A stretch of 64,000 nt of DNA, taken from the NCBI RefSeq assembly GCF_001375555.1, contig NZ_CTDZ01000009.1, positions 1,047,758-1,111,757 of the forward strand, read 5' to 3'. The notes under the pieces were generated by a model. The model worked only from the letters and a program-made list of their open reading frames with translations, was not told the DNA's origin and made no database searches. This document shows, one piece after another, positions 36,081 through 53,124 of this stretch. Within the stretch, counting starts at the first letter, position 1. Every line of letters begins with the position of its first letter. Source of the DNA: Numidum massiliense. GTDB lineage: Bacteria; Bacillota; Bacilli; Thermoactinomycetales; Novibacillaceae. The translations under genes and the position numbers were made by a program.

Positions 36081-36548
36081 ATGCCGACTCCGAGTATGGA
36101 AGACTATTTAGAACGTATTTACCAGTTAATTGAAGAAAAAGGATACGCTCGCGTATCCGATATCGCTGAATATTTAGATGTGCACCCTTCTTCTGTGACG
36201 AAAATGGTGCAAAAACTGGACCAAGAGAAGTTTTTAATTTATGAAAAGTACCGTGGCCTCGTGTTGACAGCAAAAGGCAAACGGATCGGTAAACGGTTAG
36301 TGGAGCGGCATGAACTGTTGGAAGAATTCCTCCGCGTGATCGGCGTCGATGAAAGCTTAATATACGACGACGTCGAAGGGATTGAACACCATCTCAGCTG
36401 GGAGACGATCGCCCACTTGGAATATTTAGTACAGTACTTTCAGGAAGACTCACAGCGTGTCCACGACTTGCTTGCGTTAAAAGCTGAAGCTGAAGCACAA
36501 GAGGGAAAGGACAGGCAAATAACGGCGGACAAAGAAGTAAAGGAGTAG
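36081..36548 (+). CDS. mntR: Manganese-responsive transcriptional regulator MntR
   Basis: 155 aa, slightly longer than B. subtilis MntR (142) because of a charged tail. The DtxR-family winged helix is [27 protein letters not shown] split over residues 6-32, with recognition helix [12 protein letters not shown]. Metal ligands expected in this family, at MPTPSMEDY (Asp8 region), E and H in [13 protein letters not shown] and EGIEHHLSW, are present. It represses Mn(II) uptake when manganese is plentiful. ATG at 36081 follows AAAGGAGGATCT. The gene order mntR-yqhO is as in B. subtilis. Confidence 0.95.
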
Positions 36549-36601
36549 CAGAAGAAGTAAATAGTAACAGGAGGGAAGAGGAAGTAACAAAAATAGTGAA
36601 G

Positions 36602-36700
36602 GAGTAATAAAAGAAGTAAAAGAGTAACTAAAGAATAATGGAGTAACTAAAGAAGTAAAAGAGTAACTAAAGAAGTAAAAGAGTAACTAAAGAAGTGAAG
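36602..36700. repeat. Five tandem 20-bp repeats downstream of mntR
   Basis: Units of GAGTAACTAAAGAAGTAAAA, the first and last slightly degenerate and one a base shorter. Similar GAAGTAA-rich sequence continues upstream into the mntR stop region (AAAGAAGTAAAGGAGTAG), so the array seems to have grown from the mntR 3' end. It lies between mntR and yqhO; no ORF of interest spans it. Confidence 0.85.
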
Positions 36701-36760
36701 GTGTTAGACACACTGGCCACGCATAAACTGTAACACACACCTTACTGAGGAGGTGCTTGT

Positions 36761-50854: not shown

Positions 50855-50929
50855 CCACCAGGAACGATCCATTCAATAATGCCGGAAACGCGTGCCCTTA
50901 CGCTATCATCAGGCAAAATGATGCACCAT

Positions 50930-50953
50930 CCCTCTTTGGCGAGAGGGTTTTTT
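50930..50953 (+). terminator. Terminator of the spoIIIA operon
   Basis: CCCTCT pairs with AGAGGG around TTGGCG, followed by T6. Confidence 0.85.
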
Positions 50954-51145
50954 GTTTGTCGGTTATAGGCGGCTTTGTGCTTTAAAAATTGTTTTGCCGA
51001 CATCGGCACGGCACTCTTACCGCTCGTTCCCCGGATGTGTTACAATACCGTTAGCGTATTGTGCCAACTTGGCGAAAGCGTTTTTTGGACTAACCTCAAA
51101 AAAGTGTTAATATACAGAAGAGGTATTTTTAGGAGTGATGTCAAA

Positions 51146-51764
51146 GTGAAATTGGAAGATATACGCGAGCTCGTGCAACTGTTAGAAGCGTCGCAACTAG
51201 AAGAATTAGAACTGGAGAAAGAAGGCGCACGGCTTCGTTTGAAGAAAACGGGTGTGACCAGCACACTGCAAGCGCCGCTTGCCGGGCCGCAGTCGATCGC
51301 TCCTGCACAGCCGCTCGCCGCGCAGACAACTTCCGCCGTGACCGGGTGTGACCAGCACACTGCAAGCGCCGCTTGCCGGGCCGCAGTCGATCGCTCCTGC
51401 ACAGCCGCTCGCCGCGCAGACAACTTCCGCCGTGACCGCGGCAGAGGCGCCAGCCGCAGAGTCCACATCGACGACCGATACGGTAGCCGAACAACGCGAG
51501 GAAGGCGTCCTCGACGAAGAAAATTTACATAAAATTGTCGCCCCGATGGTCGGAACGTTTTATCAAGCATCTGCGCCAGACGCTGAGCCGTACGTGCGCA
51601 TCGGCGACCACGTCGACGAGAAGACGGTCGTCTGTATCGTCGAAGCGATGAAACTAATGAACGAAATAGAAGCGGAAGTGAACGGGGAAATTGTAAAAGT
51701 TCTCGTGGAAAACGGACAGCTCGTCGAATACGGGCAACCGTTGTTTTTAGTGAAGACGAACTAG
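51146..51764 (+). pseudogene. accB: Biotin carboxyl carrier protein accB, split by a 94-bp tandem duplication
   Basis: GTG at 51146 (AGGAG ten bases upstream) starts KLEDIRELVQLLEASQLEEL, a normal BCCP N-terminus. After about 68 codons an exact 94-bp duplication (51249-51342 and 51343-51436) shifts the frame by one; the first frame then reads nonsense to 51532. The second frame holds the linker again and the intact biotinyl domain, with the biotin lysine in [12 protein letters not shown], to 51764. Removing one copy gives 525 bp, a clean 174-aa BCCP. accC follows normally. A GTG at 51348 could restart the C-terminal part but has no good ribosome binding site. AccB is normally essential for fatty acid synthesis. 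Confidence 0.9.
51249..51436. repeat. Exact 94-bp tandem duplication in accB
   Basis: Two adjoining 94-bp units, 51249-51342 and 51343-51436, identical base for base by eye. The unit starts CGGGTGTGACCAGC and encodes the Ala/Pro/Gln-rich linker. 94 is not a multiple of three. Confidence 0.95.
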
Positions 51765-51777
51765 AGGGGGGACGACC

Positions 51778-53124
51778 GTGTTCGAAAAAATACTCATTGC
51801 AAACCGCGGTGAAATCGCCGTACGCATTATACGCGCCTGTCGCGAGCTAGGAATTTATACTGTCGCTGTTTACTCCGAGGCAGACCGCGACGCGTTGCAC
51901 GTCACGTTGGCGGACGAAGCGTATTGTATCGGACCGACGCTTTCCCGCGACAGCTACTTAAATTTCGCCAACATTATGAGTGTGGCGACGTTGACCGAGG
52001 CGGACGCCATTCATCCCGGATACGGGTTCTTGGCAGAAAACAGTGATTTTGCCGAAATTTGCGCAGCGTGTGGGATCAAGTTTATTGGGCCGGGCCCGGA
52101 CGCGATTCAAACGATGGGGGAAAAATCGACAGCGCGGGAGACGATGAGGCGTGCGGGCGTTCCGATCGTGCCCGGCAGCGAAGGGCTCGTCGGCAGTAAA
52201 GAAGAGGCGCTCGAGACCGCAGAGGCGATCGGCTACCCAGTACTCGTGAAAGCGACTGCCGGCGGCGGCGGCAGAGGGATTCGCATCGTTAACAGTGAAG
52301 CGGAGTTAACGAAGGCTCTCGTCACGGCGCAACGGGAAGCAGAAGCTAACTTTGGAAATGCTGGCGTCTATTTGGAAAAGTACTTGCAAAATCCGCGTCA
52401 CATTGAAGTGCAAGTCATTGCCGACCAGCACGGACACGCGATCCATCTCGGGGAGCGCGATTGCTCCGTACAGCGGCGCATGCAAAAATTGATTGAAGAA
52501 GCACCGTCTCCCGCACTCGACGAAACGCTGCGCGTACAGATGGGACAGGCGGCCGTACGCGCAGCAGAGGCAGTTAATTACGAAGGTGCGGGAACGGTCG
52601 AGTTTTTATTCGAAGACGGGAAGTTCTATTTTATGGAAATGAACACGCGTATCCAAGTAGAGCACCCTGTGACCGAGATGATCACCGGGATCGATTTGAT
52701 TAAAGAACAAATTCGCGTCGCAGCCGGCGAACCGCTGTCGTACAAACAAGAGGATGTCCAAATTAACGGCTGGGCGATCGAGTGCCGCATTAATGCGGAA
52801 AATCCGGCGAAAGACTTTCGCCCGTCGCCGGGGACAGTCGATTTTTATTTGCCGCCGGGAGGCACGGGCGTCCGCGTCGACAGCTCGGCGTATGCGGGCC
52901 TTAAGATCACGCCTTTTTACGACTCGATGATTGCGAAACTGATCGTCTGGGGAAACGACCGCGAAGAAGCAATTGCCCGCATGAGACGCGCCTTAGACGA
53001 ATTCGTCATCGAGGGGATCGACACGACGATTCCGTTTCACATCGATGTGTTAAACGACGAACGCTTTATGTGCGGCGATGTGACGACGAAATTTTTAGAT
53101 GGAATGAAGGGAAGAATGGACTAG
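51778..53124 (+). CDS. accC: Acetyl-CoA carboxylase, biotin carboxylase subunit
   Basis: 448 aa, full length, GTG start at 51778 with GAGGGGGG upstream. It carboxylates the biotin of BCCP using ATP and bicarbonate. [18 protein letters not shown] at the N-terminus, the ATP-grasp loop [49 protein letters not shown] with the metal-binding glutamates, and the B-subdomain residues are intact. It is 13 bp after accB, so the two form one operon. Confidence 0.97.

Follow-up and report, generated by a model that had tools for sequence, protein, structure and literature searches.

An exact 94-bp doubling that splits accB in the Numidum massiliense genome assembly is probably a scaffolding or gap-closing artefact

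In the genome assembly of Numidum massiliense, accB, the gene for the biotin carboxyl carrier protein (BCCP) of acetyl-CoA carboxylase, is divided between two reading frames by an exact 94-bp tandem doubling, and we consider this doubling an artefact of scaffolding or gap closing, with a probability of about 0.9. One of the two units is most likely false, and which of them cannot be told; in the living cell, accB is most likely a normal gene with a single unit. The locus lies in a stretch of 64,000 nucleotides (hereafter the window), whose initial annotation had offered four readings of the broken gene: an assembly error, a reversible slippage switch, expression in two pieces and a second accB elsewhere in the genome. 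It is the first of these that our evidence supports, and the other three did not hold up. The weight of the case is carried by a gap mark found between the copies of a sister doubling, by the base composition of the doubled sites and by the genes they affect.

The features of the locus, in window coordinates, are the following.

51146..51532, + strand: N-terminal frame of accB, starting at GTG 51146; residues 1-66 are BCCP-like and are followed by out-of-frame residues to the stop
51249..51342, + strand: first 94-bp unit, coding for the linker, G+C 70%
51343..51436, + strand: second 94-bp unit, identical to the first
51342..51764, + strand: C-terminal (biotinyl) frame of accB, with the motif EAMKLMN and a match to the TIGR00531 profile
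51778..53124, + strand: accC, intact, immediately downstream of accB (TIGR00514, 764 bits)

As first annotated, the two units adjoin, agree at 94/94 bases and shift the frame by one. Tandem Repeats Finder, which returned 16 tandem rows over the window, placed the repeat at 51249-51438 (period 94, 2.0 copies, 100% match), the end at 51438 reflecting a match that exceeds two units by 2 bases. Its score of 380 is the highest of all rows, against 175 for the runner-up, and the repeat is therefore not a product of chance. Simple arithmetic bears out the earlier expectation of an intact 174-residue BCCP: 51146-51764 less one unit is 525 bp, or 174 codons and a stop. The NCBIfam profile TIGR00531 (BCCP, 156 positions) matches both pieces, the N-terminal one over profile positions 1-69 with 32.2 bits and the C-terminal one over 43-155 with 140 bits (cut-off 115.2), but in different frames, and no single open frame covering the full profile was found at accB as assembled. 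The gene thus resembles other members of this family in having N-terminal and biotinyl parts, the EAMKLMN biotinylation site (in its C-terminal frame) and a place upstream of accC, and differs from them in that its two parts occupy different frames in this assembly. Its start at GTG 51146 has a good ribosome-binding site, with a Shine-Dalgarno duplex of -10.0 kcal/mol. The description of accC as normal was also correct, and on contig C8 both accA (open frame 346) and accD (294) are intact, so that the enzyme needing AccB is otherwise complete.

Doublings of the same kind occur elsewhere in this assembly. We sampled the genome as 60 pieces (six of them contigs wholly of N) together with the window, amounting to 1,127,784 non-N bases or 30% of 3,755,739, and scanned the sample for adjoining copies, exact or nearly so, with a period of 30-2000 and a match run of at least the period minus 2. 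Six rows were returned, of which five are clean two-copy doublings (94, 96, 44, 78 and 256 bp) and the sixth belongs to an array at L151 with a 41-bp unit. Besides that in accB, the clean doublings are these.

L137:2038-2229 (C9:902038-902229): 96-bp exact doubling in the gene of a BrnQ-type branched-chain amino acid carrier, which repeats 32 residues and keeps the frame
L152:8540-8627 (C9:568540-568627): 44-bp exact doubling that divides the gene of an octanoyl-[GcvH]:protein N-octanoyltransferase between two frames
L192:4854-5013 (C9:3304854-3305013): 78-bp exact doubling in L-threonylcarbamoyladenylate synthase (tsaC), 26 residues doubled
L153:5501-6013 (C9:675501-676013): 256-bp doubling, copies 256/256 identical, with a single N exactly between them (L153:5757)

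The doublings at accB, L137, L152 and L192 fall in conserved genes and break the frame in two of them, accB and the octanoyltransferase, whose two pieces both match NF053589 (profile positions 4-185 and 161-275 of 276); in tsaC the doubled residues include the PSANRSG stretch, which we take to be conserved in this enzyme. The 256-bp doubling looks like the unmerged overlap of two contig ends with the placeholder still in place, and no such gap mark is present at accB. The 44- and 78-bp doublings are probably the same assembly error as that in accB. The assembly is made up of a 3.61-Mb piece, a second of 130 kb and seven small ones (0.9-3.8 kb), and contains in the sampled part two isolated single Ns (L153:5757 and L133:8278), as expected of scaffolded short reads. 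The second of these, on C8, has no overlap across it and the frame changes there; from its sequence, the reading frame in which it sits appears transposase-like. Two further features were considered and set aside. The extra matching bases at the four doublings that lack an N (0, 0, 2 at accB and 4 at tsaC) do not decide between explanations, so microhomology is of no use as a discriminator, and a fixed overlap set by the k-mer of an assembler does not agree with sizes that vary from 44 through 78, 94 and 96 to 256 bp.

The five doubled sites share an extreme base composition. Their units have G+C contents of 0.70, 0.71, 0.68, 0.73 and 0.68 against a genome mean of 0.51, which puts them at percentiles 0.997, 0.998, 0.961, 0.999 and 1.000 among genome stretches of equal length; if percentiles are independent and random, the chance of 5/5 at 0.961 or above is about 9e-8. 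Thirteen other repeat rows of the same genome, a mixed set of 20-246 bp that are exact or diverged, in part mutually overlapping, and include exact repeats of 20-24 bp, lie at percentiles 0.012-0.806. At accB the doubled piece is indeed the flexible linker, as had been annotated, and it coincides with the G+C peak of 50900-51900. Coverage with common short-read kits depends on composition, according to two studies (PMC9330563, PMC6796507); the first of these places its emphasis on low-G+C species, so that a dropout of short reads at the G+C-rich doubled sites of the present genome is something we infer.

Three relatives assembled as single contigs served as controls, and 80 stretches of these (1.6 Mb), scanned identically, gave eight rows, seven within repeat arrays of reading frames and one clean two-copy doubling. 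Six of the seven belong to multi-copy arrays of repetitive reading frames (L218, L231 twice and L234 three times), and the other, L257, is a 36-bp repeat in the array of another reading frame, at G+C percentile 0.967. The clean doubling, L249, measures 52 bp and lies at percentile 0.694; being part of a single-contig genome, it indicates that real exact doublings exist. A cluster of clean doublings like that of N. massiliense was not seen in the 1.6 Mb of controls. The contrast in rate, five in 1.13 Mb versus one in 1.6 Mb, is weak and borderline when taken alone (conditional binomial 0.048).

The doubling could have arisen as follows. Short reads would have covered the G+C-rich linker of accB poorly, and two contigs may have ended in it, sharing 94 bp that were not merged by the assembler. 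A scaffolder would then have set one contig after the other; the placeholder between them might later have been removed, either by gap closing or in manual finishing, so that the overlap remained in two copies. Unmerged contig overlaps are probably the source of all the 44-256-bp doublings described here. A paper on another gut bacillus, presumably by the research group behind this genome, describes a MiSeq mate-pair library and the use of SPAdes, SSPACE, Opera and GapFiller, with manual finishing that gave 'contigs without gaps' (PMC4627390), and it is our guess that the present genome went through the same pipeline; the passages available from PMC7424261 and PMC10228379 hold nothing on its assembly. 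GapFiller closes a gap where the extensions from left and right share an overlap of 10 nucleotides or more and the length of the insert agrees with the estimate (PMC3446322); under such a rule, the overlap could end up in two copies where contigs are joined across a gap that is in truth negative. False duplications reported from other assemblies (PMC9516828, PMC2864568) are similar in their adjoining copies, in the gap that often separates the copies or has been wrongly filled (in vertebrates: PMC9516828) and in the corruption of gene models. They differ in that they come from vertebrates and involve largely differing parental copies, while the doublings described here are of 44-256 bp in a haploid bacterium.

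A DNA search of 31 genomes (N. massiliense and 30 others) matched accB in 29 of them, the exceptions being G014, which is 67% complete, and G025. Among the 29 accB-like loci fetched from 28 relatives, each carries the biotinyl motif within an open frame that measures 162-222 codons, 28 have the N-terminal motif in that same frame, and none contains an exact tandem doubling of at least 30 bp. G001, the one further genome from this family among those searched, contributes two accB-like loci, L015 and L038, and it is L015 that lacks the N-terminal motif searched for. For the best 80 of 261 loci from a named genome collection, the biotinyl motif lies in a frame of less than 400 codons in 73; 26 of those 73 have the N-terminal motif. 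For remote phyla the N-terminal pattern is narrow, and many of these rows are remote, so that the counts are given no weight here.

In heteromeric acetyl-CoA carboxylases, a fixed break of accB should be lethal. We ran the profiles TIGR00531 and PF00364 over the whole genome (3,755,739 bp). The second accB that had been suggested did not emerge: apart from the gene in the window, nothing in the genome matched TIGR00531 above the cut-off, and the remaining six rows are accB's own N-terminal piece and weak matches to other biotinyl or lipoyl domains. With no accB-type BCCP above that cut-off besides the one in the window, a fixed break of this gene should be lethal here as well. PF00364 matched at eight places, accB and a stand-alone biotinyl protein among them, and the remaining ones are taken, from their sequence and length, as pyruvate carboxylase, E2 enzymes and a GcvH-like protein. 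The stand-alone protein, of 70 residues and encoded at C9:1288585, matches NF006079 (acetyl-CoA carboxylase BCCP subunit) with 113.7 bits (cut-off 95), and a second carboxyltransferase (514 residues) lies 2.4 kb downstream of its gene (cluster C9:1288585-1292462). The family search there was made for the carboxyltransferase; the other neighbours, named from their first residues, resemble acyl-CoA dehydrogenase, acyl-CoA ligase, HMG-CoA lyase and enoyl-CoA hydratase and look like an acyl-CoA breakdown cluster. The biotinyl protein covers only TIGR00531 positions 101-152, without the N-terminal part of a BCCP, and was rejected as a second accB on this ground and for its place in another carboxylase cluster; we take it to belong to the adjacent acyl-CoA carboxylase rather than to the enzyme of AccB. 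Together with the second carboxyltransferase it could in principle soften a loss of AccB. That accB is dead and bypassed, with this protein, AccC and a carboxyltransferase making malonyl-CoA, is nevertheless scarcely credible, given the apparent breakdown function of the cluster and the intact accA, accC and accD, which a dead AccB would make useless.

The other explanations take the doubling as real. A recent tandem duplication may have been present in the culture that was sequenced, its frequency low or mixed, with accB broken in a minority of cells or the cells saved by frequent reversion. The 94-bp doubling, exact and with 2 further matching bases, has the look of a fresh event, and there is a precedent in the control L249. 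We regard this explanation as unlikely, because the same lesion recurs in unrelated genes of one assembly, with an N between copies in one case and extreme G+C in 5/5, and because a fixed break of the only accB should kill. Quite unlikely, too, is the wider proposal that all five doublings are real, as frequent fresh duplications at G+C-rich sites, the accB break being tolerated because rapid copy loss, translation restart or the stand-alone biotinyl protein would keep malonyl-CoA sufficient. Some observations do count against an artefact: the extra matches at accB and tsaC (2 and 4) would also be given by microhomology-mediated duplication, G+C-rich stretches could favour real slippage as well, and among the controls L249 is a clean doubling and L257 a repeat of high G+C. 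The earlier idea of a reversible slippage switch, in which gain or loss of a unit turns fatty-acid synthesis off or on, has in its favour that 94 cannot be divided by three and each such change would therefore toggle the frame. In phase-variable tandem-repeat genes, many short units vary in number at the level of the population. The likeness to these is that repeat copy number shifts the frame; here, in contrast, there are two units of 94 bp, with sister doublings in unrelated genes. We found no support for a switch and hold it to be very unlikely: the exact doubling is seen in 0/29 loci of relatives, similar doublings affect a carrier, a lipoylation enzyme and a tRNA-modification enzyme that have nothing evident in common but G+C, those of 96 and 78 bp, being divisible by three, would have no frame to switch, and there is no evident benefit in turning off an essential step.

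Expression of BCCP in two pieces would require the biotinyl domain to be restarted at GTG 51348, as was once proposed, or a +1 ribosomal frameshift within the 190-nt overlap of the frames. The biotinyl frame has a TGA at 51339 and is open from 51342. Both frames are open over 51342-51529, the whole biotinyl domain is kept in the C-terminal frame, and the overlap holds three homopolymer codons of the upstream frame (GGG 51344, AAA 51521 and TTT 51524), all of which would suit such expression. However, GTG 51348, the first ATG, GTG or TTG of the biotinyl frame, has no Shine-Dalgarno sequence, its duplex of -3.8 kcal/mol being close to the random mean of -3.4 (5th percentile -8.6), and GTG 51432 (-0.4) and ATG 51546 (+1.0 kcal/mol) likewise lack a ribosome-binding site. 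Only CTG 51360, among the codons of this frame examined up to 51560, reaches -8.0, short of the 5th percentile, and a scan covering simple frameshift signals found that TGA follows none of the three homopolymer codons. We thus judge two-piece expression highly improbable. Among the matches to a literature search on accB or biotin carboxyl carrier protein with tandem duplication, only plant work appeared.

A real doubling would interrupt an essential gene in a striking manner. As a probable artefact it is recorded here as a warning: claims of gene loss or pseudogenes from this genome need to be checked against reads, and further false doublings that split or lengthen conserved genes are probably present, since five in 30% of the genome scale, by hand, to some 15 to 20 in all.

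Elsewhere in the window, a 20-bp tandem array of 8.6 copies with 76% match extends over 36531-36701.
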